This document shows, piece by piece, positions 43,567-58,475 of a stretch of DNA of 64,000 nucleotides. Both the position numbers and the translations under genes were made by a program. Location: contig MTMD02000014.1 of assembly GCA_002010065.2 (NCBI GenBank), positions 1 to 64,000 of the forward strand. The letters are read 5' to 3'. Each line of letters begins with the position of its first letter. Within the stretch, counting starts at the first letter, position 1. The stretch is from Candidatus Pyrohabitans jungbluthii (GTDB taxonomy: Archaea > Hydrothermarchaeota > Hydrothermarchaeia > Hydrothermarchaeales > BMS3B). The notes below the pieces were generated by a model that was not told the origin of the DNA, searched no databases, and worked only from the letters and a program-made list of their open reading frames with translations.

Positions 43567-43697
43567 TAACCTGTACCTTACCGGTAATGCTGACAACTGT
43601 TCAAAGAATTAAAGAAGTAATAAATATTATCAAAAGAACTTAAAATTTATTAAGGGATTGCTGACTACTGATGCCCAATATTTGGAGAAGTGGAAAA

Positions 43698-44033
43698 ATG
43701 GCGGACAGACTAAAAGCCTACAGACAGAAAGAGGGGCACGAAAAAATAAGAGAAATTGGACATATCGACCTCTCCGATGCGGTATTAGCCGTAAGACAGT
43801 TGAAAATCTCCCCGGCAAATGTGGAAATTCCAGAGATGGTGGGAGTCCAGAGGGATAGAAGCTTTATTGAGTTCACAAAACTTGCGGATGGTGAGTATCA
43901 GGTAAGATACGAAAACCCCGGTGAAAAAGTATACCTGATAGGCAGTTTGCCGGAGCAAAAAGCCATTGATTGCCTCACAGATTTCTTCAAAGGCGAGCGG
44001 CCAAGGTGGTGTGATGAGCTCGAGGAATATTAA
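43698..44033 (+). CDS. Small cytoplasmic protein of unknown function
   Basis: 111 residues from MADRLKAYRQ; GGAGAAGTGG precedes this ATG, while an ATG nine codons earlier lacks such a site. A basic N-terminal helix precedes a beta-rich part (SFIEFTKLADGEYQVRYEN; KVYLIGSLPEQKAIDCL). No known family. It overlaps the start of the cohesin-like gene by 20 bases, so the two are coupled. Confidence 0.55.
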   Translation: MADRLKAYRQKEGHEKIREIGHIDLSDAVLAVRQLKISPANVEIPEMVGVQRDRSFIEFTKLADGEYQVRYENPGEKVYLIGSLPEQKAIDCLTDFFKGERPRWCDELEEY

Positions 44034-44571
44034 AATAGTGCTGCTTCTCCTGATTTTACTTTCGGTGATTTCAGGCACGCTGCTTTATATTAAGTTTCAG
44101 AACCGGAAGTCTGATGCTTTGCTGCCAGAGAATGCGACAGTCTCCAATGGCCCATCCTATTTTCCCGAGCTGTACCTTAAGCCGGAACAGGTTAAAATTG
44201 AGCCAAATGAGACAGCGGTTGTCAATGTGGTTCTCGTAAATGGCTCAGCCGTAGCGGCTCTTGATATTGGTATTGAATACGACGGAAATGTGATCGAGGT
44301 GCTAAACGTCACCTCAAACTACAGCATTAATTATTCCACCGGCTATATACTCGACCACTTTCTTAAGAATGTCCTGGAGCTGGAAATATATCCTGAGAGA
44401 CCCATCGAAAATGGCAGCATAGTGGCAAGCATCGCCATACGAGGGGTGCGTGAGGGTAAGAGCGTTCTGAGCTTCTCTATCTTTTCCGAGCTGTACGATG
44501 AAAAAGGAAAGCCGATAAACAGGGGGCTTTTCGACATCGCGGAGGTTGTGGTGGGAAATGAGCAACTATGA
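44014..44571 (+). CDS. Membrane-anchored cohesin-like protein
   Basis: 185 residues: an N-terminal helix (about 8-27), then a beta-sandwich that resembles cohesin domains (LYLKPEQVKIEPNETAVVNV; AALDIGIEYDGNVIEVLNV; GSIVASIAIRGVREGKSVLS). Archaeal cohesin-like domains occur on surface proteins and mediate protein-protein contacts with dockerin-like partners; no dockerin is visible here. Several N-x-S/T sites would allow N-glycosylation. It is convergent with a large secreted protein gene. Confidence 0.72.
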   Translation: MSSRNIKIVLLLLILLSVISGTLLYIKFQNRKSDALLPENATVSNGPSYFPELYLKPEQVKIEPNETAVVNVVLVNGSAVAALDIGIEYDGNVIEVLNVTSNYSINYSTGYILDHFLKNVLELEIYPERPIENGSIVASIAIRGVREGKSVLSFSIFSELYDEKGKPINRGLFDIAEVVVGNEQL

Positions 44572-44589: not shown

Positions 44590-46263
44590 TTAGAGATAAT
44601 GCCCCTGGACAGTTGACTCGGCGCAAACATATCTTTCCATCTCCCTCACCTCCCCATTTTTAAGCACCATGTACTTCGCGTATATTAGCCTGTCCTTCCC
44701 CAGGCTCTTTCTGTAGAGCCTTTCAACGATGAAGCCTCCGGCTTCTTCTCTCGCAACGGTGTGGGATATCGGCGGCTCCCTCAGGATTTTGAGCTCTCCT
44801 CCCATCTTCTGAGCCTCTTCCCTCATATCCTGCAGGACCTTCTGAAGCTCTCCCTCATTTACCTCCCGGTGCTCCCTTCCGTACCAGGAATTTGAAGTTT
44901 CATGAACCACAAAGCGCACATAGTCTGCCGCCTCTTCCGGTGTATCTATGGGCGCAAACAGGAAGGATGCCTGCTCCCAGCCTTCCACGGCGAAGCCCAC
45001 GTTGTTGTATTCGGCGATGAGATAGCTGAGCTCATCCGCTCCGATGCGCTGGTAGATGGGTCTGATAAGCCTGAAGCCCTCTCTGAGCTTTAGGCTGGGG
45101 TAGCGCCTTTTAACACCCTCTTCCGTTGAAATTACCCCGAGACCCTCGGATATTTCAAACTCCTCGTCGAGGATTGGAACCTCCTCGCCGTTGATGATGA
45201 GGCGCTCCCTGAGACCGTCGTAGGTGACGTTGTGGGGTGGGAAGAACGCAGGAGCCCTCGCGTAGAAGCGGGACCAGACCTCAATGTTCACCAGATAGTT
45301 GCCCCTGACCTGCACAATGTCAAGAAGCGCCTCGCACCTGCTTTTAATCAGAGGCTCCAACCCTCTGCTCACTCTGAACAGGTCCTCAAAGGTGTAGAAG
45401 TTGCAGTGGTCTAAGGAATTATACGACTTGAAGTAGTATGCATTTGCCCCCCGGAGGGACATGCTACCCCTGTCCATCCACTCAAGCTCATAGAGGAGGC
45501 TGAACAGGGTAGAGGAGTATTTCTTCGGCAGGTATCCCTTCGCCAGCCTATTCCCATCTTCACCCGGCCTGAGCTTTCTGATGTAGACCCTCACCGCCTC
45601 TGCGACCTCTCCGTCCTCCTCACGCCAGTAGGTCACAAACCTCTCCCCTCTCTTGCCGCCGAAAAAGCTCTCCAACCCCTCTGTTGAATTTGGCGGCGCC
45701 TCAACGACGCCCTCTTCACCCTTTATCCAGCCTTCCGGCAAGTAAGAGAAGCGTATATCCCCGCCTTCAATGGTCACCCCTCTGGCTACCTCCATAGCCT
45801 CGGTTTCCAGTATGTCACCCTTTTTATCCTGAGAAATGTAGGGATCGAGGTTTACGGTGAGATTCCCGAACACTCCTTTATCTATGGCGATAAAAGGCGG
45901 TGAATAGATTATGAGCAGATTCTCCGGATATGTGAGCGAAATAACCCTTCTGTCACCCTCCTTCATGGGCATGATGTACTCACCTTCATCTTTTTGATTC
46001 ATAAGAATGAGACTGCGATAGCCGGTATCTGCCACAAAATCGCCCCAGTATATGTTCCTAAGCTTTGGTTCTATTTTCTCAACCTCAATTACCACGTCGT
46101 AGTATCCTGTGGCAGGGTTCTCCCGCACCTCAACAAGTTTGAATGTCACCTCGACAGGAGAGGGCGGCACCGGCGGGGATAAAACAATATACAAGAGCAG
46201 GGCAGAAATGACGACCACGAATACGCCAGCTACGCCAAGAACTATTTTTAGAGACTTTCTCAT
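44590..46263 (-). CDS. Large membrane-anchored extracytoplasmic protein of unknown function
   Basis: 557 residues: MRKSLKIVLG and one helix (8-28) followed by a long soluble part with few cysteines. Segments such as EVTFKLVEVRENPATGYYDV, FSYLPEGWIKGEEGV and ADYVRFVVHETSNSWYGREH suggest beta-rich domains, but I know no family. Being anchored outside and next to the cohesin-like protein and the giant lipoprotein, it probably belongs to one surface system. Confidence 0.6.
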   Translation of the reverse strand: MRKSLKIVLGVAGVFVVVISALLLYIVLSPPVPPSPVEVTFKLVEVRENPATGYYDVVIEVEKIEPKLRNIYWGDFVADTGYRSLILMNQKDEGEYIMPMKEGDRRVISLTYPENLLIIYSPPFIAIDKGVFGNLTVNLDPYISQDKKGDILETEAMEVARGVTIEGGDIRFSYLPEGWIKGEEGVVEAPPNSTEGLESFFGGKRGERFVTYWREEDGEVAEAVRVYIRKLRPGEDGNRLAKGYLPKKYSSTLFSLLYELEWMDRGSMSLRGANAYYFKSYNSLDHCNFYTFEDLFRVSRGLEPLIKSRCEALLDIVQVRGNYLVNIEVWSRFYARAPAFFPPHNVTYDGLRERLIINGEEVPILDEEFEISEGLGVISTEEGVKRRYPSLKLREGFRLIRPIYQRIGADELSYLIAEYNNVGFAVEGWEQASFLFAPIDTPEEAADYVRFVVHETSNSWYGREHREVNEGELQKVLQDMREEAQKMGGELKILREPPISHTVAREEAGGFIVERLYRKSLGKDRLIYAKYMVLKNGEVREMERYVCAESTVQGHYL

Positions 46264-46316: not shown

Positions 46317-46352
46317 CTACCATCCTCCGTCATCGCCGCCATCGCCCCAGTC
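46317..46352. repeat. 36-bp inverted repeat, copy 1
   Basis: The last 36 bases of the short zinc-ribbon gene, including its stop codon, are identical in inverted orientation to 48230-48265. Identity stops exactly after the TAG on one side and at a single change (GGT/GGA) on the other. It encodes DWGDGGDDGGW and the stop. Confidence 0.85.
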
Positions 46353-46985
46353 ACCATCATCGCCATCATCAGAGCCGCCGTAGCCGAAGGAGTCATCAAA
46401 GGCGGCGTCATCCGAATTTACATCCTCAAGTATTGAGCTGTAGTCCTCCTCCGGAATTGCGACAACCTCTGCAACCTCCGATTGAGAAACACCCTGCGGA
46501 AGGTCGTTGAGGTAGGACATAACAAATATTGGTGCTGCATACCGCATTGCATCGTCCTCATCTTCCCTGATGATTCTCCCTATTTTCTTCCTGTCCTCCT
46601 CAACAATTTTTTCTGCTTTGGGTGTCAGCTCATAGTACTTTTTCTTTCTAAAAAATCCCTTCTTCTTAACCCTGAGCAGGTCTCTTTTTATCAGCTTGTC
46701 GACAGTATTCCTGATGTAGGAGTGGGACTTTCGGACCATCTTTGCGATTATTTCCGTGTTGCTAATCCCGTGCTTCACCGCCATTAATACAGAAAGCTGT
46801 ACCGGGGGAAGCGAGCATTTGATTTTCTTTTTCTTCGTCTTCTTTGTAGATTTTTTAGATTTTGCCTTGACTTTCCTGTTAGCCTTGCTTAAAATTGATT
46901 GTCTGTACTTCCTTAAATCTTTGCCACAGTTAGAACAGAAATTGTGCTTCTCACCCACCTCTGCCCCGCATTCAGGGCAAAACAT
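46317..46985 (-). CDS. Zinc-ribbon, winged-helix protein with acidic Gly/Trp tail (short paralog)
   Basis: 222 residues from MFCPECGAEVGEKHNFCSNC; the upstream open frame is not conserved. Residues 1-25 are a zinc ribbon (CPECG...CSNCG). A Lys-rich linker (27-60) leads to a winged helix (about 60-135: VQLSVLMAVKHGISNTEIIA; KKGFFRKKKYYELTPKAEK). After a helical region come Asp/Gly repeats ending DGDWGDGGDDGGW. It looks like a DNA-binding regulator. It is divergent from, and homologous to, the gene at 47180, sharing an exact 36-bp sequence at the 3' end. Confidence 0.7.
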   Translation of the reverse strand: MFCPECGAEVGEKHNFCSNCGKDLRKYRQSILSKANRKVKAKSKKSTKKTKKKKIKCSLPPVQLSVLMAVKHGISNTEIIAKMVRKSHSYIRNTVDKLIKRDLLRVKKKGFFRKKKYYELTPKAEKIVEEDRKKIGRIIREDEDDAMRYAAPIFVMSYLNDLPQGVSQSEVAEVVAIPEEDYSSILEDVNSDDAAFDDSFGYGGSDDGDDGDWGDGGDDGGW

Positions 46986-47179
46986 ATTATCCCCTCTGGT
47001 TATGTTGGTATTTATATTTTTCGCAAACTGTGGCGGCTGAGGGCGAATCGCATAAATTTGCGGCAAAAATCGAAGATATTGTGATTTTGCTGTAAAACTG
47101 CGCCAGTTGGATATTATTACTTGCACACATAAACCACAAACTATTTATATGACTAAAATTTTATAAGGATAAATTGAAC

Positions 47180-48265
47180 ATGTTCTGCTCTAATTGCGGA
47201 GTAGAAGTGGAGGAAACTGACAAATTTTGTTATAATTGCGGGCATAAACTAAAGGTTAGAGGCAGGGTTTCTAAGAGTGCTGGCGGGGAGGTGGAGAAGC
47301 AGGTCAGCAAGGCTAAATCTGCTAAATCTCCAGCTAGGGGTAAAGCTAAAAGTAAAATAAAGCTGAAGTGCTCAATTCAGGGGATGAACAAAAAATTCAA
47401 ACCCAACGGCTCCTACAGGCTTTACAGTCTCGGGAGGGTTTCCCTCGAGGAGGCTCTGGAGTATCTGAGAATGATGCCTGAAAAGGAGGACTTTCCGCCA
47501 AAACTTCTGAAGAGAATTAAGAATATGGAAGACGTGTGTGTGCCCCACTTAATCTTCTCAAACACCTACACCCTCACCTTTTTCACCTCAGACGGAGAGT
47601 CAATAGAGGTGATAACAGAAGACTTCACCGAACTTGCAGGATTTAAATTTAAAAGTAGCTCTGCCGAGCTAATAGCGGTTGACGTCAGCAGAGAGGAGGC
47701 AGAGGAGATATTGAAGGATTTCTTCTGGAGAGTTGAGAGGATAAAGGAACTGAAGCTGAGGCTCTCCCCGCTTCAGCTGTCGATAATGACAGCCATAGAC
47801 AATGGTGTAAGCAACTCGCACGCCATGGCTGCGGTTACTGGTGTGGGGCAGAGTGAGGTGAAGGATGAGATTAAGGAGCTGCTGGATAAGGATTACATTA
47901 AGCTCAGGAAGAAGGGCTTTATAAGGAAGAAGTACTGGTATGAGCTTACTCCGAAGGGTGAGAGCATACTTGCGAGGGACAGGAGGAAGGTTGAGAAGGC
48001 GGTGGCAGATGATGACAAGATGCTGAATAATTTTGCTGCCCTCTTCTGGATGATGTATGCCCTGCATGTCGTTCCTGATACCATCACCGGAGACCAGATC
48101 GTAGATGTCATAGGCGAACCCCCCGGAGAGGTGGAGGAAGTGGTCGCCGTGCCGGAGGACATGGCATACGACATCGACGTAGATGCAGGTGGAGATGGCG
48201 ACGATGGAGGCGATTATGGAGACGACGGAGACTGGGGCGATGGCGGCGATGACGGAGGATGGTAG
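47180..48265 (+). CDS. Zinc-ribbon, winged-helix protein with acidic Gly/Trp tail (long paralog)
   Basis: 361 residues from MFCSNCGVEVEETDKFCYNC; a TTG two codons earlier is an alternative. The zinc ribbon (1-25) and basic linker are followed by an extra domain missing from the paralog (about 65-195, with RLYSLGRVSLEEALEYLRMM), then the shared winged helix (about 200-275: LQLSIMTAIDNGVSNSHAMA; KKGFIRKKYWYELTPKGE) and the tail DGDWGDGGDDGGW. TATTTATATG lies about 30 bases upstream, giving a very short leader. It precedes the giant lipoprotein gene by 10 bases and is probably cotranscribed with it. Confidence 0.7.
   Translation: MFCSNCGVEVEETDKFCYNCGHKLKVRGRVSKSAGGEVEKQVSKAKSAKSPARGKAKSKIKLKCSIQGMNKKFKPNGSYRLYSLGRVSLEEALEYLRMMPEKEDFPPKLLKRIKNMEDVCVPHLIFSNTYTLTFFTSDGESIEVITEDFTELAGFKFKSSSAELIAVDVSREEAEEILKDFFWRVERIKELKLRLSPLQLSIMTAIDNGVSNSHAMAAVTGVGQSEVKDEIKELLDKDYIKLRKKGFIRKKYWYELTPKGESILARDRRKVEKAVADDDKMLNNFAALFWMMYALHVVPDTITGDQIVDVIGEPPGEVEEVVAVPEDMAYDIDVDAGGDGDDGGDYGDDGDWGDGGDDGGW
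48230..48265. repeat. 36-bp inverted repeat, copy 2
   Basis: The 3' end of the long zinc-ribbon gene, identical to the reverse complement of 46317-46352. Such perfect identity over the tail, against diverged sequence elsewhere, points to recent gene conversion or strong selection on both DNA and peptide. Confidence 0.85.
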
Positions 48266-48275
48266 AGAAGCAGGG

Positions 48276-51023
48276 ATGAAAGACCGGCTTATTTTACTTT
48301 TGATTTTCACGGTTTTACCCGCTATTCTCCTGAGCGGCTGTTTTGGCGGTGGGGAGGAGTTTGTGGAGGAGGTGATACTCGAAAAAACCATAAATCCAGA
48401 TGAGACCCAGACTGTGGAATTTGACGGCGGGAGTGTTACAATACCTTTTGGAACAATCGACGAGAATGATACCTTAAGAGTGGCAGTGGTGAAAAAAGCA
48501 CCAAAACCAGAAGGTGCTGAAATATTAAGAGCCTACAATATAGATTTGGCCAAGACGGAAAATCTCAACGGATATATTGAGATAAAGCTGAGGCACACCG
48601 GGCCAGCCAAAAACATTGTGGCTCTGACCTACGACGAATCCTCCAAGAGATGGGTGGGTGTGTTGTACAGAATAGTCGATGATGGCGTTATTATATACAC
48701 CCCGCACCTGTCCTATTTTGCCACAGCTGTGGTGACTCACGAGTCAGGACCAATGGCAAAGATAAACTTAGATTACGTATCCGCAGCCGGCGTCTCAATG
48801 GATGAGGATAGAGCGTTAGCTGTGCTGCGGGAATACGTAAACAACAACTACGAGCCTGGTCCCAATGCCTACAGGGTTGGCTGGGACGCCGCGATGGAGT
48901 ATTTTGGAATTGGGGGTGCAGCATCAACCTTCGCCCAGCATGGGCTTGACGTGCAGACGCTTGATAAGTTCAACACATGGGCAACGCACTTAGGGGTTGT
49001 GTTTGCAGTAATACAGCTTGGCTGGGATCTGTATGATGGAAATGCCGATGAAGGAACTGTTAACTTTCTGAAGAACATGATGTACTCGGCGGTGGGTGAG
49101 TTTGGCACCCCAGCAATGCAACTCAGCTTTGTTGGTGTATTTGCAATAGACTACTCTCTAACAAAGTTCATGGTAACCGCTATAAGCGACAGGGAGAAGA
49201 TATGGGAGGAAGCCTACAAGCTGTACTATAAGAAAGATGATAGGGTAAAGCAGAAGAAAAAGATGAAATACTGGTATGATGAATTTTTAAAACTTTACAA
49301 GGAGAGCAGAACTCCTGCGGAATTAAAAGCAAAAATTGATAAAGCTATAAACGACTACGTTTACGATTTCTGGGAGGATGAAACCACAGTTGCTTTCTAT
49401 CAGGAAGAGGTCATGAAACACGCCTGGACCGGCGGCGGTGGGCTGAACGAGGAGCTTAAAAAGAAAATCTCAGAAAATCATAAGGCGGAGCTTATGAATG
49501 CCCTAAAGCCAGTATTTTGGAGGCTTGAAGAGCAGATTTTACTTGAAATGCAGGCAAAAGCCACCAGACAATTGAAGAAAATGGCTGAGGAACTGAACAA
49601 AGTGTATACCCTGAATGTCAGGGTAAACGGTCCAAAAGATTTTGTTTCGGGGCTTGAAGTTTATATTCCAGTGAAGGCGGGTAATCAGGAGCAGTGGAGC
49701 TGGGAGACGGACGAGAGCGGCGAGTGCTTCATCAGGTTTACCCTCTACGGACTCCTGAAATCACAGGCAAAGAACAAGGTTGTGCTTATAACAAAGACTG
49801 GAGAAAAAATTGAGCAGGAGTTCAAGCTCACTTCTAGGTCAACGAGCGTTGTTTTTAATATAGAGGGCAAGGGTAGCATTCAGGTCAGCGTAACACCGAA
49901 GAGGGTTGCTCCCGGGGACAAGATTAAGGTGAGCGTTCAGGTAAATCCGCCTGTTGAAACAGAGCTGGAGATTAAGATAGAGAATATTGAGACGGGGTAT
50001 GGAAAGAAATCAGAGCCGTGGAAGGTTAAGACAGGCAAGGACGGCAGATACGAGAGCAACTTTGTTATCCAGCCCAAAGATGTTTATAAGAAGGCGGGTA
50101 AGAATGTGTTAATTGTCACCGCCCCAGAGCTCGGAGCTGAAGGCAAAGCAACCTTCGAGATTATCAAGCCGGAGATCAGCGTTACAGTCTCACCCTCAAC
50201 AGTTAGACCGGGTGAGGCTGTGGTGATAAAGGCGAGGGTTGAGCCGCCCGGGAGGTATAAAGCCAAGCTTTCCGTTTTGAACGCGCAGAGCGGTGCGAGC
50301 TACAGCGACATAAAATACACGGACAGCAGCGGAAACTTCAGATATCAGCTGAGGATATACGCGAAAAACATCGAGCAAAAGCTGGGAACAAACATCGTCA
50401 GCGTTGAGATACCAAAACTCGGGGTTATGGGCACCGCAAGCTTTGTTGTTGAGGCAGAGGTGATGCCGACACCGAAGCCAACGCAGACGCCGGCACCCAC
50501 ATCTGAGCCTACAGGGACACCACTTCCAGGAGAGCCCACAACTACACCACAGGCTGAAAGTCCCTTCAATTTAAATAAGGAATATAAGGCAGGTTTTGTG
50601 GTAGATGTAGAACTCCAAGATGGAAAGCGCGATTGGTTTAATTTAAATACCTATGGATATGGCAGTAAAGTAACTAACAATATATATCATGTTAAGTATG
50701 ACTATCGTGGAGACCCAAGGACTATAGGAGAGTTCAAAGCAACTTTCGACCAAAATTACAGGCTCATGACAATAAATGCTTGGCAAAAGATATTAAATAA
50801 AAAAGGAGATGTCGAACTTGAAAAAGGATTAATCTGCAACAATCTTGGATTAGATGTTTATGGCAGATCTTGGAATGGGGATAGGGTGAGATATTGGAGT
50901 GGAGATGAAAAATTGCTATCTTCTTCCTGTACTGCGTATCATCGACATTTGGGCACTGAAATGAAAATAAAGCGGGTCGTTGAACTGGATATTAAGTTTA
51001 GAATGATTGAAGATGAAAAATGA
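48276..51023 (+). CDS. Giant lipoprotein with Ig-like repeats and Pro/Thr tether
   Basis: 915 residues from MKDRLILLLIF; the frame upstream only overlaps the zinc-ribbon gene. Lipobox ILLSGC (Cys21). A beta-rich module (about 30-140, possibly ZU5-like: VTIPFGTIDENDTLRVAVV), a helical region with a hydrophobic patch (about 165-440), a carboxypeptidase-regulatory-like module (about 445-525), two Ig-like repeats (SVTPKRVAPGDKIKVSVQVN; TVSPSTVRPGEAVVIKARVE), a PTPKPTQTPAPTSEPTGTP tether and a C-terminal domain of about 150 residues with three Cys. I know no full-length homolog. It would sit on the outer membrane face, encoded 10 bases after a putative regulator. Confidence 0.7.
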   Translation: MKDRLILLLIFTVLPAILLSGCFGGGEEFVEEVILEKTINPDETQTVEFDGGSVTIPFGTIDENDTLRVAVVKKAPKPEGAEILRAYNIDLAKTENLNGYIEIKLRHTGPAKNIVALTYDESSKRWVGVLYRIVDDGVIIYTPHLSYFATAVVTHESGPMAKINLDYVSAAGVSMDEDRALAVLREYVNNNYEPGPNAYRVGWDAAMEYFGIGGAASTFAQHGLDVQTLDKFNTWATHLGVVFAVIQLGWDLYDGNADEGTVNFLKNMMYSAVGEFGTPAMQLSFVGVFAIDYSLTKFMVTAISDREKIWEEAYKLYYKKDDRVKQKKKMKYWYDEFLKLYKESRTPAELKAKIDKAINDYVYDFWEDETTVAFYQEEVMKHAWTGGGGLNEELKKKISENHKAELMNALKPVFWRLEEQILLEMQAKATRQLKKMAEELNKVYTLNVRVNGPKDFVSGLEVYIPVKAGNQEQWSWETDESGECFIRFTLYGLLKSQAKNKVVLITKTGEKIEQEFKLTSRSTSVVFNIEGKGSIQVSVTPKRVAPGDKIKVSVQVNPPVETELEIKIENIETGYGKKSEPWKVKTGKDGRYESNFVIQPKDVYKKAGKNVLIVTAPELGAEGKATFEIIKPEISVTVSPSTVRPGEAVVIKARVEPPGRYKAKLSVLNAQSGASYSDIKYTDSSGNFRYQLRIYAKNIEQKLGTNIVSVEIPKLGVMGTASFVVEAEVMPTPKPTQTPAPTSEPTGTPLPGEPTTTPQAESPFNLNKEYKAGFVVDVELQDGKRDWFNLNTYGYGSKVTNNIYHVKYDYRGDPRTIGEFKATFDQNYRLMTINAWQKILNKKGDVELEKGLICNNLGLDVYGRSWNGDRVRYWSGDEKLLSSSCTAYHRHLGTEMKIKRVVELDIKFRMIEDEK

Positions 51024-51108
51024 ATCCAAGGTTGCCTTGAGTGACACAATTGATGAAACGCTATCCCGTAGCGTTTGCAATTTATTTACACCTGACAGGT
51101 GATAAAAG

Positions 51109-52086
51109 GTGTTTGGTTTGGAGTGGGAGTACGACGTGATGTACTGGGTTAATGCGATAACTATTTCATCAGACAGCTCTTTCATCGTTGCCGGTTCTGC
51201 TGATGGAGGGATACATTCACTCGCCAGAAACGGCGAGCTTCTGTGGGATTATGAAGCAGAGGGCAGCATCCGTGCGATGGCTGTGGTGGAAGATGCCTCA
51301 TGCATCGCCGCGGGCATAGACGGCGGGGAGGTGCTCCTACTCAGCAGGAGCGGTGAGCTTATCTGGAGCCATGGGCTTGAAAGCAGGGTTAGCTCTGTCT
51401 CCGTCCCGTCGGATGGGTCTTTTGTAGCCGCAGGTGCAGGTGGCTGGCTCTATGTCTTCAGCAGACGCGGAAAACTCCTGTGGAGCAGTAAGGTTGCCCG
51501 GAGCGTTGATTCGGTATCTGCATCGGCAAACGGCTCATGCATAGCTGTGGGAGCCAGAGACCTGAGCAGCGGTAAGGTTTGCCTTTTCGACAGGCATGGA
51601 GATGTGCTCTGGGAGCAGAAGACCGGCTGGAGCTTAGCCGGGAGCGTGAAGGTTGCAGCCTCTCAGAGAGGGACGCTGATTGCCGCGGGCTCGTTGCACG
51701 GTGTAAGGATGTTCGACGCGGGTGGTGAGTGTCTGTGGTACTACGAAACCGGAGGTGGCGTTGAGGATTTAGCCTTCTCTCCGGACGGCAACTACGTGGT
51801 TGCCGGCACCCTCGATGGGGCGGTTTATTTATTTAGCAAAGATGGAATGGTGTGGAGCAGAAAACTTAAAAGCTCAATCCGGGCGGTTGGGATTTCAGAA
51901 GCAGGCTGCAGCGTGGCGGCTCTGGACAACGGTTTCATTTACCTGTTTGATAGGGAGGGTGAGATTCTCTGGGAGAAGGAGACATACGAGGGCATTTGCA
52001 GTATAGACATTTCCCGCGACGGCTTGTGCATTGCCGCTGGCTCTGAGGACGGCGTTGTGTACATGTTTTCAAGGAGAAGAACCTGA
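51109..52086 (+). CDS. PQQ/WD-like beta-propeller protein
   Basis: 325 residues starting at GTG with AGGTGA before it. About eight blades repeat the pattern 'S-DGS-IVAGSADG-I-L-ar-GELLW' (e.g. LLSRSGELIWSHGLESRVSS; LFDRHGDVLWEQKTGWS; LFDREGEILWEKETYEGICS). No signal peptide or membrane helix is visible, so it should be cytoplasmic and act as a scaffold or sensor. It follows the giant lipoprotein gene by 85 bases on the same strand and may belong to the same module. Confidence 0.85.
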   Translation: MFGLEWEYDVMYWVNAITISSDSSFIVAGSADGGIHSLARNGELLWDYEAEGSIRAMAVVEDASCIAAGIDGGEVLLLSRSGELIWSHGLESRVSSVSVPSDGSFVAAGAGGWLYVFSRRGKLLWSSKVARSVDSVSASANGSCIAVGARDLSSGKVCLFDRHGDVLWEQKTGWSLAGSVKVAASQRGTLIAAGSLHGVRMFDAGGECLWYYETGGGVEDLAFSPDGNYVVAGTLDGAVYLFSKDGMVWSRKLKSSIRAVGISEAGCSVAALDNGFIYLFDREGEILWEKETYEGICSIDISRDGLCIAAGSEDGVVYMFSRRRT

Positions 52087-52135
52087 GAAATCACTGAGTA
52101 TTGATGCAGACGGAGCGTGTAGATGTTATATAATT

Positions 52136-52444
52136 TCAGCGCAGCAGCCACTTCTCACCCCATCTTCGCAGCGCATTCTCAAGCTCACGCAGGTCTTTGC
52201 CCTTCTCGGTGAGGGAATACTCCACTCTTATAGGTGAGTTGTAAACTTTTCTTTTCACAATCCCCTGCTCTTCCAGCTCTTTTAGGCACTTGGAGAGGGT
52301 TTTTGAAGAAATCGCCCCGAGGCTACGCTTGAGTTCATTAAAGCCCTTTGGTCCATCAAAAAGGAAGTGGACTATTGCTAGGTGCCACTTTCTGCCCAGT
52401 AGATTTATCGCCTCCACCACCGGGCAAACTTCCCTCTGCCTCAT
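52136..52444 (-). CDS. HxlR-family transcriptional regulator
   Basis: 102 residues of winged-helix fold: CPVVEAINLLGRKWHLAIVH, GFNELKRSLGAISSKTLSKC, LKELEEQGIVKRKVYN and RVEYSLTEKG. The N-terminal Cys (residue 7) is the conserved redox- or electrophile-sensing Cys of the family, and a second Cys is present in the recognition region. It is divergent from CDGSH and DsbA-like genes, its likely targets. Confidence 0.93.
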   Translation of the reverse strand: MRQREVCPVVEAINLLGRKWHLAIVHFLFDGPKGFNELKRSLGAISSKTLSKCLKELEEQGIVKRKVYNSPIRVEYSLTEKGKDLRELENALRRWGEKWLLR

Positions 52445-52466
52445 CTAAATCACCACCGGGAAATCT

Positions 52467-52524
52467 GGTTACATCTAGGTTACGTTAAGTATAAATACTT
52501 TTCTATGGAAACTAGGTATAAAAA
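52467..52524. promoter_or_regulatory. HxlR/CDGSH divergent promoter with repeated operator half-sites
   Basis: GGTTAC occurs at 52467-52472 and 52478-52483, one helical turn apart; both copies sit in similar flanks (CTGGTTAC and TAGGTTAC). The inverted repeat AAGTAT-AA-ATACTT follows. TATAAAAA at 52517-52524 is about 26 bases before the GTG start of the CDGSH gene. The layout suits autoregulation by HxlR with repression or activation of the redox genes. Confidence 0.45.
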
Positions 52525-52544
52525 GGAAATTGGAGGTGAAAGAT

Positions 52545-52742
52545 GTGGCAAGGCTGGTGAAGTTGGAAGGAAAGGAGCCGAAGGTAATAACCGAGGAGGA
52601 GGCGAAGTTTCCCATAGGTATATGTACCTGCGGCTTAAGTGCAAACTTCCCATTCTGTGACGGCTCCCACAAGCGCTGCGCAGACGAGGAGGAAGGCTCG
52701 CTCTACGTCTACGATGCAAACTCCAGGGTGAGGGTAAAGTAA
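52545..52742 (+). CDS. CDGSH iron-sulfur protein
   Basis: 65 residues from the GTG that follows GGAGGTG by about six bases. The motif CTCGLSANFPFCDGSH (C-x-C...C-x3-H) binds a [2Fe-2S] cluster with three Cys and one His, as in mitoNEET. It is cytoplasmic and likely senses or shuttles electrons or clusters. The frame remains open five codons upstream, so the start may vary. Confidence 0.9.
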   Translation: MARLVKLEGKEPKVITEEEAKFPIGICTCGLSANFPFCDGSHKRCADEEEGSLYVYDANSRVRVK

Positions 52743-52773
52743 CCCTCCCTCTTTCTTTTTCAGTGGAGTAAAA

Positions 52774-53673
52774 ATGCCAAAAATTGAAATCCTGTACTTT
52801 ACAGACCCCTACTGCACCTGGTGCTGGGGGAGCGAGCCCATCCTCAGGAAAATAAAGGAGGTATACGGCGAGCAGGTGAAAATCACCTACATCATGGGGG
52901 GCTTGGTTGAGGACATGGAAAGCTTTTACGACCCTCTCAACGACATCTCACGCGCCGAGCAGGTTGCTCCGCATTGGTTGAGTGCTTCAGAAAGGCATGG
53001 GATGCCGGTTAGTGGTAAGCTCTGGCTCAGCGACCCACCCCGCTCAACCTTTCCCGCGAACATCGCCTACCATGCGGCGAAGCTTCAGAGCGAGGAAAAG
53101 GCAGAGAAGTTTCTTCGAAGGATGCGTGAAGCTGCTGCAGCCGAGGACAAAAACATCTCAAGGTTGGAAGTTCTTGTTGAGCTTGCGGAAGAGGTGGGCT
53201 TGGACGCTGAGAGGTTTGTGCGTGACTTCACAGGAAGAGAAGCTAAGGATGCGTTTCTTAAGGATTTAGCAGTTATGGGCGAAGCCCTTGGTTTAAAGGC
53301 GCCTGAAAAATTCACCTCTGAGGCTGAGAAGGCTTTCTACAGAGACCTGAAGTATGCAAGAAATCTCGGTGTAACTGGCTTCCCCACCTTTCTGGTAAGG
53401 AACGAAAAGGGCGAAGGTATATGGGTCACCGGATACCACCCCTTCAGCACCTTCGAGATGGTTTTCGAGAAGCTGTCTCCAGGGTTAAAGAAGAGAAAGC
53501 CGCAGAGTATTCTTGCATTTATTGAAAAGTACGGCAGAGTAGCGACGCGGGAAGTGGCAGAGGTTTTCGACCTAACTGACGAAGAGGCTCTTGCAAAACT
53601 TGAAGCGCTGGAAAAAGAGGGGAAAATAAGAAAGCTACGCGCAGGAAACGGCTATTTCTGGGAAATAGTCTAA
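52774..53673 (+). CDS. DsbA-family thioredoxin-fold protein with C-terminal winged helix
   Basis: 299 residues. A thioredoxin fold begins at once with LYFTDPYCTWCWGSEP (C14-T-W-C17), has a long helical insert and closes with GVTGFPTFLVRNEKG (cis-Pro). This matches the cytoplasmic FrnE/SpxH-like DsbA group, not the exported type: there is no signal peptide. Residues about 240-299 form a small helix-turn-helix (YGRVATREVAEVFDLTDEEA), an unusual attachment that could bring redox activity to DNA. It is downstream of the CDGSH gene and ends 4 bases inside trmO. Confidence 0.85.
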   Translation: MPKIEILYFTDPYCTWCWGSEPILRKIKEVYGEQVKITYIMGGLVEDMESFYDPLNDISRAEQVAPHWLSASERHGMPVSGKLWLSDPPRSTFPANIAYHAAKLQSEEKAEKFLRRMREAAAAEDKNISRLEVLVELAEEVGLDAERFVRDFTGREAKDAFLKDLAVMGEALGLKAPEKFTSEAEKAFYRDLKYARNLGVTGFPTFLVRNEKGEGIWVTGYHPFSTFEMVFEKLSPGLKKRKPQSILAFIEKYGRVATREVAEVFDLTDEEALAKLEALEKEGKIRKLRAGNGYFWEIV

Positions 53674-54125
53674 TCCTTTGTCTTCCTCTTGTGATGCCTG
53701 TCCTCCCATGCACCGTACTTCGGGTTGGTTATGGTGTAGTGCTGCGGCGAGTATGGCTTAATGTCCAGCACCGGCGAGCCGTCCATCGCATCTAAGCCCT
53801 TAAGATAGAGCTTATTTCCCTCGATTTTTATAATCCTGCAGGGGGTTATACCTATGGGGTTCGGTCTGAATGGACCACCGCTGGCAAAGACGCCTATCTC
53901 CTCATCGCCATGAGGTGGCTTAACCCGGAGTCCGCGAAACTCTGCGCGGTGCATGTGGTATATGATAAACACGTGGGAAAAGTGCTCGGCCAGGTTGTAA
54001 AGCCCGTCCTTGTACTCCTCGAAGACCTCCACAACGCCTTCGCCAGAGTCCTCGAACTCTTCGTGCTGCTCTGGTGACTTAAACTCCGACCTCACTATAC
54101 CAATGGGCTTGTAGCAGATTTCCAT
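53670..54125 (-). CDS. trmO: TrmO-like tRNA (t6A37) N6-methyltransferase
   Basis: 151 residues. It uses SAM to methylate t6A37 to m6t6A in some tRNAs. The family blocks are YKPIGIVRSEFKSPE, HVFIIYHMHRA, FASGGPFRPNPIGITPC and LKGLDAMDGSPVLDIKPY. It fits with TsaC, also in this window, which makes the t6A precursor. It is convergent with the DsbA-like gene. Confidence 0.92.
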   Translation of the reverse strand: MEICYKPIGIVRSEFKSPEQHEEFEDSGEGVVEVFEEYKDGLYNLAEHFSHVFIIYHMHRAEFRGLRVKPPHGDEEIGVFASGGPFRPNPIGITPCRIIKIEGNKLYLKGLDAMDGSPVLDIKPYSPQHYTITNPKYGAWEDRHHKRKTKD

Positions 54126-54143: not shown

Positions 54144-55334
54144 CTACACAAACCACACAAGAATAACCACGCCCAGAAGTACCATAACTATGCCTGAAGC
54201 GAGTCTCATACTCCTAGCCTTGGACTCTTCCCAGTCCTTCAGCCGCTTTGTAACCTTCTCATTGGAAGCCAGGGCGAGGATGACTATGAGGGGCACGACG
54301 AACATGAAGTTGTACAGCAGCAGGTAGGCCAAGCCCTGAAAATATGTGGTCTTCGCCGAGAGCAATGCAAGAATCGCCACGTATATTCCGCCAGAGCATG
54401 GGAAGGTGCACAGACCAACGAGAAAGCCCAGGACGGCAGCGGAAGGGAAAGTGCCCTTGTACGCCCACCTTCTCAGTGTGGCATGGCTGAAGCTTGGAAT
54501 GCGGAGGTGGATGGGCAGGATGAAGGGGTTGATGTAGTCTTTAATGTTTATCAGCCCCAGGATTATTATAAGATAGGCGCCCAGTTTTGCCATGAAGTGG
54601 GGTCTGCCCGTAAATATCAGCGCCTTCATTATACCAATGCCTATGAGGAAGTAGGCCAGGTAGATGGCTGAGATGTACACAACGCCCATCTTAAGCACGC
54701 CGGCGCGGGTCTTCTTGATAGTGAATAGGAAGGCGATGAAGAAGAGCAGTACTGCAAATGCGCAGGGGTTTATCCCATCGAGCAGACCTGTAACAATAAC
54801 CAAGGGAAGTAAGCCGGAGGAGGCGTAGATCCCCTCAAGGTTGCTGGGCTTCATGTCTTTTAGCTCATTAAAGTAAGTTGAGAGGGGCTCGTCTATTGGA
54901 TACTCCCGTATCTCTCCGCCAGGCACCCACACGCGGTAGCTCTTTGCATTCGCCTTCATGGAATCCTGGTATACTACCAGCTTGCCATCCCACTTCAGCG
55001 CTTCCCTCACAGCATGCTCCGGCACGTGTCCCTCGAGAAATATCCTCCCGTCTATGACAGCGGTAAGGTGCCCCTGCAGCCTTGGCGGAATCCCCTCTTT
55101 CTCATTGAGGGAGATTAGCTCTTTCCTGTAGTCTGGGTTATTTATATAGTCCTTGAGCACAATCTTGGTAACACCTTCCTCCTTAAGCAGCGGTATGAGC
55201 CTCTCTTTAATGTAAATAGTACAGTCTGTGCAAGCTTCGTTGTAGTATATCACAGCCTCGCGCTGCTCAGCGGCATAGCTGAGGGGCAGCGATGAAAAGA
55301 TTAGCAGGAGCAGAAAAATATACCTAAGCCTCAT
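54144..55334 (-). CDS. DsbD-like membrane thiol reductase (glutaredoxin-like + CcdA domain)
   Basis: 396 residues. A signal peptide (1-22) precedes an external glutaredoxin-like domain with C35-T-D-C38 (YYNEACTDCTIYIKE), a linker, then a six-helix CcdA domain with the intramembrane Cys in GLLDGINPCAFAVLL and LVGLCTFPCSGGIYVA. It moves electrons from the cytosolic thioredoxin pool outwards to keep heme-attachment Cys reduced. It is the last gene of a four-gene operon after ccdA and two DUF1573 genes, overlapping by four bases, and so matches the needs of the multiheme cytochromes. Confidence 0.88.
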   Translation of the reverse strand: MRLRYIFLLLLIFSSLPLSYAAEQREAVIYYNEACTDCTIYIKERLIPLLKEEGVTKIVLKDYINNPDYRKELISLNEKEGIPPRLQGHLTAVIDGRIFLEGHVPEHAVREALKWDGKLVVYQDSMKANAKSYRVWVPGGEIREYPIDEPLSTYFNELKDMKPSNLEGIYASSGLLPLVIVTGLLDGINPCAFAVLLFFIAFLFTIKKTRAGVLKMGVVYISAIYLAYFLIGIGIMKALIFTGRPHFMAKLGAYLIIILGLINIKDYINPFILPIHLRIPSFSHATLRRWAYKGTFPSAAVLGFLVGLCTFPCSGGIYVAILALLSAKTTYFQGLAYLLLYNFMFVVPLIVILALASNEKVTKRLKDWEESKARSMRLASGIVMVLLGVVILVWFV

Positions 55335-55750
55335 TTCTCTTCCTCCTTAACAACCACTGCAGTTAAAGGTATAACAACCTCCGGCTCAGCCGGGTCGTTT
55401 GTTAGAATGTACACTTCTCTGTAGACCTCGCCAAGTACCTCTACCTCCATTAGGTTGGGGTCGAAGGTTACAAGAAGCTCCGCCTCCTCACCGGGGGCGA
55501 TCAAAGTCTTGTTTATGTACGCGCGCGTGCATCCGCAGGATGTACTCACCGCCTTTATCTCAAGAGGGGCGTCGCCGACGTTTCTTACAGTGAACACCTT
55601 CCTTACCTCCACGTAGGGAACCTCGCCGAAGTCGTAGCTCGCTGGCGTAACCTCTATCTTCGGCTCACCCTCTACAGAGAGGTACTTCACAGCGCTGACG
55701 GCGACAATAACTCCTGCTACAAACAGGAAGTAGAGGTAGAGGCTCTTCAT
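55331..55750 (-). CDS. DUF1573 membrane-anchored protein 2
   Basis: 139 residues with one N-terminal helix and an Ig-like DUF1573 domain: PASYDFGEVPYVEVRKVFTV, VRNVGDAPLEIKAVSTSCGC and YILTNDPAEPEVVIPL. The conserved SCGC pair is typical of the family and could take part in disulfide relay. The family's role is not established. It overlaps the DsbD-like gene by 4 bases. Confidence 0.85.
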   Translation of the reverse strand: MKSLYLYFLFVAGVIVAVSAVKYLSVEGEPKIEVTPASYDFGEVPYVEVRKVFTVRNVGDAPLEIKAVSTSCGCTRAYINKTLIAPGEEAELLVTFDPNLMEVEVLGEVYREVYILTNDPAEPEVVIPLTAVVVKEEEK

Positions 55751-56308
55751 TCAATCCACCTGAATAACCCTTATATACACCCTAGCCACTGGCTTCTGCG
55801 GGTCGTTGGTGTAGAGGTTTACATACCTCACGACCTCACCTCTGAGATCGGGGTGAACCTTGGGATCGTAGTAAACCTTGAGGTAGGCTTTCTCTCCGGG
55901 ATGGATTCTCTGACTCCACCACTTTGGATTTGTGCCGTGCTCCCGCATATTGAATTTTGGACCTTCCTTTCCATTGTATATGATAGAGGCGGAGGTGCAC
56001 CCACAGGAGGTGTCCATATCGTCGATTACCAAATCGCCATCACCTCGATTCTCAATAACAAAGGTGGTGGTTACCACACCGCCCCTGACGCTCACCGTGC
56101 CAAAGTCGTATGCCTCAGGGGTAATCACCATTTTCGGCGTTCCCTCGATTATCTCTTCGGATTTTGAGAATTTTAAAGAATAGATTCCTATCGCCAGAAG
56201 CAAGAGGGCTGCAGCTATGATATATATCCCTCTGTTATTTTTTCTTTTTGCATTTTTTGCCTTCACTTTTTCTTTATTTTTTCGATATTTTTTCTTTTTC
56301 TTAGCCAT
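55751..56308 (-). CDS. DUF1573 membrane-anchored protein 1
   Basis: 185 residues from MAKKKKKYRKNKEK with AGGAGGTGAAG before it. A very basic cytoplasmic start and one helix (about 29-45) precede the DUF1573 domain: PEAYDFGTVSVRGGVVTTTF, MDTSCGCTSASI and YTNDPQKPVARVYI. The SCGC pair is kept as in the next gene. It has an insert before the last strands (KFNMREHGTNPKWWSQRIHP). It is the second gene of the ccdA operon. Confidence 0.85.
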   Translation of the reverse strand: MAKKKKKYRKNKEKVKAKNAKRKNNRGIYIIAAALLLLAIGIYSLKFSKSEEIIEGTPKMVITPEAYDFGTVSVRGGVVTTTFVIENRGDGDLVIDDMDTSCGCTSASIIYNGKEGPKFNMREHGTNPKWWSQRIHPGEKAYLKVYYDPKVHPDLRGEVVRYVNLYTNDPQKPVARVYIRVIQVD

Positions 56309-56319
56309 ATCTTCACCTC

Positions 56320-57021
56320 CTAAAGCAGGGCGGGGAAGTAAGGCAGAAGCTTTGCCTGTATATATCTGTCTACGCCAAAGAGGATGCCAATGCCTGTGAG
56401 TATTATCACCCACCCGGCGAACTTTCTCATCCTGAGTGAGTTCCTCCTTACCCACTCAAGTCTTGCTCCGTAGCGCTTGCTCCCATACGCCACGGCGAGC
56501 ATGGGTATGCCGAGGCCTATGGAGTACACAAAGAGCATGAAGGAGCCCCTAAGTATGTCTCCACCCATGGCGACGTAGGATAGCACCGCTCCGAGCACCG
56601 GGCCGACGCAGGGTATCCAGACTATGCCCAGGGAGAGCCCCAGGAGGAACGCTCCGCCGAGAGAGTCTTCGCCGGTTTTTAAAGGTAAAAACTTTGAAAG
56701 CCTCCCGACGAGGGAAGAAGAGTGCTTTACATAAGCCTGGTTTAGTTCATCGTCCACCATTATGGCACCAAAGCCTATCATAAAGGCAATCGCAAGGTAG
56801 CGCATCACCTCGCCAGCGGCGCTCGCGGCGATGCCAAGAGCGGAGAACACTCCGCCCATAAGTGTGAAGGTGATGGACATGCCCAGGACTATAGCCAGCG
56901 GCCTGAGCTTGCTTCCAACGCTGCCCGCAAGGAGTGGTGGAAGTATTGGTATTATGCAGGGCGTCACCACTGTTAGTACGCCAGCGAGAAATACCAGAAC
57001 TATTGAAGGCTCGGCTACCAT
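56320..57021 (-). CDS. ccdA: CcdA cytochrome c biogenesis membrane protein
   Basis: 233 residues, six helices. The redox Cys are seen in VLTVVTPCIIPILPPLLAGS and SLGIVWIPCVGPVLGAVLSY. CcdA carries reducing power across the membrane for c-type cytochrome maturation. It is the first gene of the operon, with CTTATAAAC about 29 bases upstream of the ATG. The cytochrome gene upstream and the two octahemes elsewhere in the window are likely beneficiaries. Confidence 0.94.
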   Translation of the reverse strand: MVAEPSIVLVFLAGVLTVVTPCIIPILPPLLAGSVGSKLRPLAIVLGMSITFTLMGGVFSALGIAASAAGEVMRYLAIAFMIGFGAIMVDDELNQAYVKHSSSLVGRLSKFLPLKTGEDSLGGAFLLGLSLGIVWIPCVGPVLGAVLSYVAMGGDILRGSFMLFVYSIGLGIPMLAVAYGSKRYGARLEWVRRNSLRMRKFAGWVIILTGIGILFGVDRYIQAKLLPYFPALL

Positions 57022-57321
57022 GTTAATATACCTCGCTTCTTGACAGTCTGTTTATAAGCATAGGCAACAAAAAACACTCCCCACAGATTAATGTGAGGGA
57101 TTATATCCCCCATATTCCCTTGGCCTTGTGAACGCAGCATCCGCCGCGAAGGGACTTATCAAATTTTTGTACAGCATTTGCAGCCACCCTTCAAATTTTT
57201 TTAAATAGATTGATGGTTTTAATCACTAATAACCTTTATTATTTACAAAATAGAAATAGAAGGTGTGTGTCATTTTCCACTTCGTACTATGGTCTGCTCA
57301 GCGTACCCCTCTCAGGACAGT
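57022..57321. other. Intergenic region between ccdA and the cytochrome c gene
   Basis: It holds the ccdA promoter at its left end (TATA near 57048-57056, minus strand) and AT-rich sequence elsewhere. I see no RNA gene, repeat or coding frame worth calling. Confidence 0.4.
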
Positions 57322-57693
57322 CTACAGAGACTTCAGATAAGCCTCCAGTGCTGTGAGACGCTCGTCGTTCTCTGGCAGAGGCTTGCCCTTCATGGGCACC
57401 TCTATGCAGAAGTTTATTACCTCCTTCAGTGTCATCTCCCTCTTTGCCATCTTGAAGTATCCCTTGGGGTTGTACTTATCGCCCACTCCGGAGAGCGTCG
57501 ATGGCTCGGGATGGCAGGTCAGGCAGCTCTTCCCATTCGTGCCAAGGCTGGCATCCGCGAAAAGCGCCCTGCCGTACTCCACTAAGTTATCCGGCTTCTC
57601 TGTCTCTAGAGCCTCTTCAGCCTGAGGCCTCTGTGCACATCCTGCAAAAATCGCTGCAAGTAACACCACCAGGATTAATCTTTTCACACCCAT
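57322..57693 (-). CDS. Monoheme cytochrome c lipoprotein
   Basis: 123 residues. Lipobox IFAGC (Cys19) anchors it outside the membrane. One heme site, CLTCH, follows GKS near residue 56, and a Met in VPMKGKPLPENDERLTALEA could be the distal ligand, as in class I cytochromes; the C-terminal helix LTALEAYLKSL fits that class. It is a likely small electron carrier between the membrane and the large octahemes. It is close to ccdA and the DsbD-like gene. Confidence 0.88.
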   Translation of the reverse strand: MGVKRLILVVLLAAIFAGCAQRPQAEEALETEKPDNLVEYGRALFADASLGTNGKSCLTCHPEPSTLSGVGDKYNPKGYFKMAKREMTLKEVINFCIEVPMKGKPLPENDERLTALEAYLKSL

Positions 57694-57788: not shown

Positions 57789-58475
57789 TCAAACATAGCC
57801 CCTGTCGCGCAGGCTGACGTAGCGCCCATCGCCTATGATTAAGTGGTCCAGCAGCTCTATGCCGAGAAGCTCACCCGCTCGCTTGAGCGCTTTTGTTATG
57901 GCGATGTCCTCGCTGCTTGGCTCAGGGTCGCCGCTCGGGTGGTTGTGGGCCACTATTACCCGGGTGGAAGCCTCTTCAAGGGCGATTCTGAACACCTCGC
58001 GAGGCTGAACCACGCTCGCCTCAAGTCCGCCCTGGGATATGTTCACAAGACGCAGCACCCTGTTTTTCGAGTTCAGGTAGATGCCTGCGAAAATCTCAAC
58101 CTTTCGCTGCGCCAGCCTAGGGTAGAGCACGCGAAATGCATCGCCGGAACTTTTAATCACCGGCTTCTCCTCTGCACGGTCCTCCGCTAACCTGCGTGCA
58201 AGTTCAAAGCACGCCGCTATCTGGCACGCTTTGGCGTCGCTTATACCGTGAATCTTCTTCAACTCGGCTACGCTTGCGCTGGCGAGGTCTTTGAGCGAGT
58301 ACTCGCTCAGAATCCTCGTAGCAAGGCTGAGGACGCTCTCCCGCTTAGTGCCCGTTCTGAGCAGGATAGCCAGAAGCTCAGCATTTGAAAGCGCCTCGCT
58401 ACCATGGCGAATAAGCCTCTCCCTTGGCCTCTCTGAAAGAGGCATGTCTTTGATTTTAACCACGTACTCGGCCAT
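57789..58475 (-). CDS. radC: RadC-family JAB/MPN-domain protein
   Basis: 228 residues. An N-terminal helix-hairpin-helix region (LRTGTKRESVLSLATRILSE; LKKIHGISDAKACQIAACFE) and a C-terminal JAMM domain with VIVAHNHPSGDPEPSSEDI (H-x-H...S...D zinc ligands). RadC was once linked to DNA repair, but its function is unclear; the domain resembles a metalloprotease. RadC is mainly bacterial, so its presence here may reflect transfer. Confidence 0.92.
   Translation of the reverse strand: MAEYVVKIKDMPLSERPRERLIRHGSEALSNAELLAILLRTGTKRESVLSLATRILSEYSLKDLASASVAELKKIHGISDAKACQIAACFELARRLAEDRAEEKPVIKSSGDAFRVLYPRLAQRKVEIFAGIYLNSKNRVLRLVNISQGGLEASVVQPREVFRIALEEASTRVIVAHNHPSGDPEPSSEDIAITKALKRAGELLGIELLDHLIIGDGRYVSLRDRGYV

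Follow-up and report, generated by a model that had tools for sequence, protein, structure and literature searches.

Back-to-back zinc-ribbon paralogs with a probable winged helix and acidic tails, each ahead of a gene for an exported protein, in Candidatus Pyrohabitans jungbluthii

Background

Two paralogous genes, here called p1 and p2, stand back to back in the genome of the archaeon Candidatus Pyrohabitans jungbluthii, and each heads a gene for an exported product. This raises the question of what the pair does for its neighbours, and whether the arrangement is a recurrent system or a local one. A first-pass annotation had proposed a surface-sensing module of four genes: the two paralogs, a large lipoprotein and a beta-propeller.

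The window is the whole stretch of 64,000 nucleotides that was analysed (contig MTMD02000014.1, positions 1 to 64,000), and all coordinates refer to it unless another contig is named. The genome itself (G000, 1.99 Mb) is part of a set of 23 genomes of Hydrothermarchaeota, 5 of them in the genus. Two others from this set, G006 and G009, recur below.

Layout of the locus

The gene for p1 (46317..46985, minus strand) encodes 222 residues. From the N-terminus, a zinc ribbon (CxxC...CxxC) is followed by a linker rich in Lys, a probable winged helix of the MarR-like kind and an acidic Asp/Gly/Trp tail. A 269-residue reading frame that opens with GTG begins too early, and the likely start is the zinc-ribbon ATG at 46985. 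Its paralog p2 (47180..48265, plus strand) is built of the same parts and has 361 residues. The difference in length is mainly due to a 129-residue insert between linker and winged helix.

On the same strand as p1, 53 nt downstream, lies the gene for a 557-residue protein of no family with an N-terminal membrane anchor (44590..46263, minus strand). On the other side a 915-residue lipoprotein (48276..51023, plus strand) follows p2 after 10 nt, as had been described. The two genes are also adjacent in G009. Given this same-strand spacing, p1 and p2 may each head a unit whose product is exported. The propeller gene (51109..52086, plus strand; 325 residues, WD40-type) comes 85 bases after the lipoprotein, and is a doubtful member of the locus. 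The four genes listed at first pass are thus present, but the 557-residue protein behind p1 had been omitted.

A further small unit is found upstream, at 43671-44571. It consists of a 120-residue protein of no family (43671-44033) overlapping the gene of an anchored protein, for which a cohesin-like match is marginal (20.7 bits, where the cut-off is 24.1). Both genes are kept in G006 and G009.

Domain structure and relatives of p1 and p2

Both paralogs match Pfam Zn_Ribbon_1 (PF13240) at 31.9 and 33.7 bits, where the curated cut-off is 25, and share the pattern MFCxxCG...FCxxCG. For the winged helix, matches to MarR-type profiles are weak but consistent, and all are below the curated cut-offs. 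A profile built on p1 and p2 matches MarR chains in the PDB with a best E of 0.0013, over residues 193-276. The predicted structure of p2 is poor (mean pLDDT 39.9), so the winged-helix call rests on sequence. This region is conserved between p1 and p2, and the motifs LxPxQLS and KKGFxRKKxxYELTP are invariant in both paralogs in all genomes that carry them. The domain order given at first pass therefore holds, with the ribbon above cut-off and the winged-helix profiles weak. The two genes are products of a duplication.

Charge segregates along the chain: the linkers carry a net +15 and +11 in p1 and p2, the tails -12 and -10. The p2 insert (47369..47755, plus strand; residues 64-192) is 87% identical to its counterpart in G009, and is predicted with low confidence to be mixed alpha/beta. 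A family match was searched for, and none was found. Its strand and helix order resembles that of the nearby 120-residue protein, which suggested homology; profile-profile comparison gave this a probability of 0.2%, and the idea was rejected.

None of the databases searched gave a family name to the proteins as wholes, which agrees with the earlier statement that no named system with this set of genes was known. The nearest comparison is with the MarR-superfamily regulators (AdcR, Tm0710, PDB 7dvn). These would share the winged-helix core, at about residues 193-287 of p2, while p1 and p2 add the N-terminal ribbon, the Lys-rich linker and an acidic tail ending in Trp, and p2 also the extra domain. 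There is no full-length match. The ribbon itself is like that of zinc_ribbon and DZR-type proteins (PF13240, PF12773), but such a ribbon is a very common adaptor.

Genome contigs were scanned further afield, with zinc-ribbon patterns as the sole queries. Two Hydrothermarchaeota records stood out, one from Candidatus Pyrohabitans sp. JdFR-17 (97% identity over the p2 query) and one from a Candidatus Hydrothermarchaeota archaeon (79%); all other matches were to the ribbon only. In 67 other loci the zinc-ribbon matches hardly reach beyond the first 20-80 residues. One Lokiarchaeota locus with a wider match turned out to hold two unrelated zinc-ribbon membrane proteins. A search of 227 Asgard genomes, run without a positive control, gave no match. 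Virus and plasmid collections gave ribbon-only matches or none, a defence-system search gave weak winged-helix matches only, and a fold search with the low-confidence models had no match at E below 0.001. Over their full length the tail proteins match no known unrelated family.

The acidic tails

The tails of p1 (SDDAAFDDSFGYGGSDDGDDGDWGDGGDDGGW; 46320..46415, minus strand) and p2 (AGGDGDDGGDYGDDGDWGDGGDDGGW; 48185..48262, plus strand) are rich in Asp, Gly and Trp, and both end in DGGW. Over the last 23 residues 18 are identical, whereas shuffles of the same composition agree at 8.0 positions on average, and none of 100,000 reaches 18. The final 12 codons, stop included, are the same in DNA (46317-46355 and 48230-48265), and in the four codons before these only silent differences are found. 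From the winged helix to the tail, in contrast, the paralogs are 32% identical. Identical codons right beside silent differences and a diverged region suggest either gene conversion between the inverted ends or strong constraint.

The two tail-coding ends form an inverted repeat with arms of 69 nt and 83% identity (46317..46385 at the end of p1, 48197..48265 at the end of p2). An invertible switch between these arms was considered and rejected, since the genes have the same orientation in G006; the repeat is simply two homologous tail-coding ends.

In G009 the p2 tail has a different length and composition and only one Trp, but the DGGW end is kept. This pattern would suit a disordered arm whose tip is functional, such as a docking peptide, and would suit a plain charged arm or spacer equally well. 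A search for DGGW followed by a stop across the phylum gave three further matches with the stop codon, and none of these is an Asp/Gly-rich tail.

Acidic C-terminal tails of the SSB and T7 gp2.5 type carry a terminal aromatic residue. Unlike those proteins p1 and p2 have no OB fold, and their tails are composed of Gly, Asp and Trp. What is alike is an acidic tail on a protein that binds nucleic acid, as p1 and p2 probably do, and no homology is claimed; in single-stranded DNA-binding proteins such tails engage partner proteins or alter the binding of DNA (PMC5686142). By this analogy the tail would probably serve for docking or for autoinhibition.

The region between the genes

The 194 bp between p1 and p2 (46986..47179) form a putative divergent promoter region. 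There is a TATA-like box sequence towards p2 (47144-47150) and another towards p1 (47011-47017). Both are kept in G009, at a distance of 131 from each other compared with 133 here. In a search for an operator motif, the block conserved in this region did not recur in the window above chance, and no binding site was found.

G009 is informative in another way. Only 311 nt (L013:9774-10084) separate its 557-residue protein gene from p2. What is left of p1 is the TATA-like region and ATG-TAT-TGT-CCT, followed by broken sequence with an early stop; the remainder is gone. As both boxes are kept though p1 has decayed, the membrane protein seems to have come under the p1 promoter. Since the promoter pair, p2, the lipoprotein and the membrane protein all survived this loss, p1 is dispensable. 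The ancestral locus probably had two regulators.

The most economical reading, with about an even chance of being right, is one of twin autoregulated winged-helix regulators of their own surface-protein operons, arranged as two divergent units. Unit 1 would be p1 and then the 557-residue anchored protein, unit 2 would be p2 and then the lipoprotein. Each paralog would most likely control its own unit from sites within the 194-bp region, and the extra domain of p2 may receive a signal. The tail would most likely be a disordered arm, either folding back onto the basic linker or winged helix or docking a partner protein, by analogy to the SSB-type tails. There is precedent for the autoregulatory part: Stf76 is an archaeal winged-helix protein that binds its own promoter (PMC4027180). 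A regulator that sits beside a structural gene may nevertheless act elsewhere.

Conservation of the locus

The genes for p2, the lipoprotein and the 557-residue protein are found together in 3 of the 5 genomes of the genus, and in 0 of the 18 other genomes of the phylum. Identities to G006 and G009 are 98% and 79% for p2, and 96% and 79% for the 557-residue protein. For the lipoprotein they are 96% (over the 504 residues present) and 75%. The contig of G006 ends inside the lipoprotein gene, so that its propeller neighbourhood is not assessable. An ortholog of p1 is present in G006. Measured against G009, dN/dS is 0.12 for p2 (dN 0.108, dS 0.909), 0.14 for the 557-residue protein and 0.19 for the lipoprotein: these three genes are under purifying selection.

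The remaining two genomes of the genus (completeness 96% and 93%) have none of the three. The restriction to one genus is firm among the 23 genomes of the phylum. Beyond it this is provisional, because the outside searches were weak, relying on zinc-ribbon patterns and on an Asgard set without a positive control. The check proposed at first pass has a split outcome: the genes do adjoin in other genomes, but in the same genus only.

It is possible, though we would not bet on it, that the locus is a genus-specific block whose genes adjoin through descent alone. The two regulators and the surface proteins would then be orphans, the propeller a common one, and no shared function would tie them together. 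The formate dehydrogenase next door is common to the same three genomes and absent from the other two, which makes the difference one of a whole block. The three genomes are also fairly close, so gene order may have had no time to break. That p1 was lost in G009 while the remainder stayed fits this as well, and so does the separate history of the propeller described below. What descent leaves unexplained is the 10-nt spacing of p2 and lipoprotein, and the symmetric layout of regulator and exported protein in both directions.

The exported proteins and the propeller

The lipoprotein has a signal peptide with lipobox LLSGC and its Cys (MKDRLILLLIFTVLPAILLSGC), read by eye and kept in G009. In order it consists of a beta-rich N-terminus, a helical middle, two related Ig-like repeats (28% identity, E 2e-13), a Pro/Thr stretch and a beta-rich C-terminal domain. 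The Ig-like repeats and Pro/Thr tether of the first-pass annotation are both there, but the repeats make up about one fifth of the protein, and its bulk is the N-terminus and the long helical region (by a low-confidence predicted model). Since about 155 residues come after it, the Pro/Thr stretch is an internal linker here. The C-terminal domain is absent in G009.

The propeller is of the WD40/PQQ-like kind (WD40 68.4 bits, cut-off 27), and no signal peptide was seen. Its gene matches known WD40 proteins (PDB 2ymu, E 1.2e-41), from which nothing notable sets it apart, and 21 of the 23 genomes of the phylum have similar propellers. Near position 51250 identity to G009 climbs from some 80% to 92-97%, and it is still close to 90% across the HxlR and FrnE-like genes. 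This tract (51250-53750) covers the propeller, the HxlR regulator and the FrnE-like gene. Synonymous divergence is 0.20 for the propeller, compared to 0.83-0.91 for its upstream neighbours, and the tract looks like recent recombination. Its boundary falls at the C-terminal domain of the lipoprotein and the first blade of the propeller, which are missing or different in G009.

An A/T-rich stretch and a perfect 8-bp hairpin (51056..51076) precede the propeller, in the spacer behind the lipoprotein. With a separately recombining tract behind this hairpin, the case for membership is weak: the propeller has a history of its own, may also have a separate promoter, and is not an established member of the locus.

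Further downstream, the list of open reading frames holds a thiol/disulphide and haem-type cluster (54144-57693). It has a thioredoxin-like/CcdA fusion, two DUF1573-like proteins and a CcdA-like membrane protein, together with a small lipoprotein that carries a CxxCH haem motif. The same list has a RadC/JAB-type protein, in an archaeon, at 57789-58475.

Interpretation

Besides the block by descent, the twin-regulator reading has to be weighed against two others. In one, p1 and p2 are general nucleic-acid-binding proteins, or accessory proteins of the transcription machinery, associated for instance with RNA polymerase or chromatin, and the tail would hold back the non-specific binding of their Lys-rich linker. 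The strong charge polarity along the chain would suit this. Archaeal TFE likewise pairs a winged helix with a zinc ribbon, but in the opposite domain order. General factors would also not be expected to be restricted to one genus of the phylum and absent from G007 and G008, and we consider this reading unlikely.

The other is the surface-sensing module itself, in which the lipoprotein senses the outside, the propeller relays and the zinc-ribbon/winged-helix pair responds; an exported protein does adjoin the regulators, but the lipoprotein shows no membrane-spanning relay to the cytoplasm, the link of the propeller to the locus is weak and p1 is dispensable, which leaves this very improbable.

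A recurrent four-gene system is likewise not what was found, with one genus only in the phylum, p1 lost in G009 and a propeller of separate history. Regulation of surface proteins was a fair inference, and gains strength from the exported-protein gene that follows p1 as well; the DNA-bound scaffold offered beside it is not supported. The locus looks like a small, lineage-specific, regulatory one, and not like a widespread new system.

A bolder version of the twin-regulator reading would make p1 and p2 an undescribed type of archaeal regulator, with the Trp-ended tail as DNA mimic or docking tip and the twin units choosing between surface proteins. This we hold to be a long shot.

If the tail does neither of the things proposed for it, the locus would be a lineage-specific pair of orphan regulators. 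If it does regulate DNA binding or recruit a partner, p1 and p2 would represent a simple design of archaeal regulator that has not yet been described. The locus would then also provide a handle on the control of surface proteins in an uncultured hydrothermal lineage, from a deep-sea hot vent.
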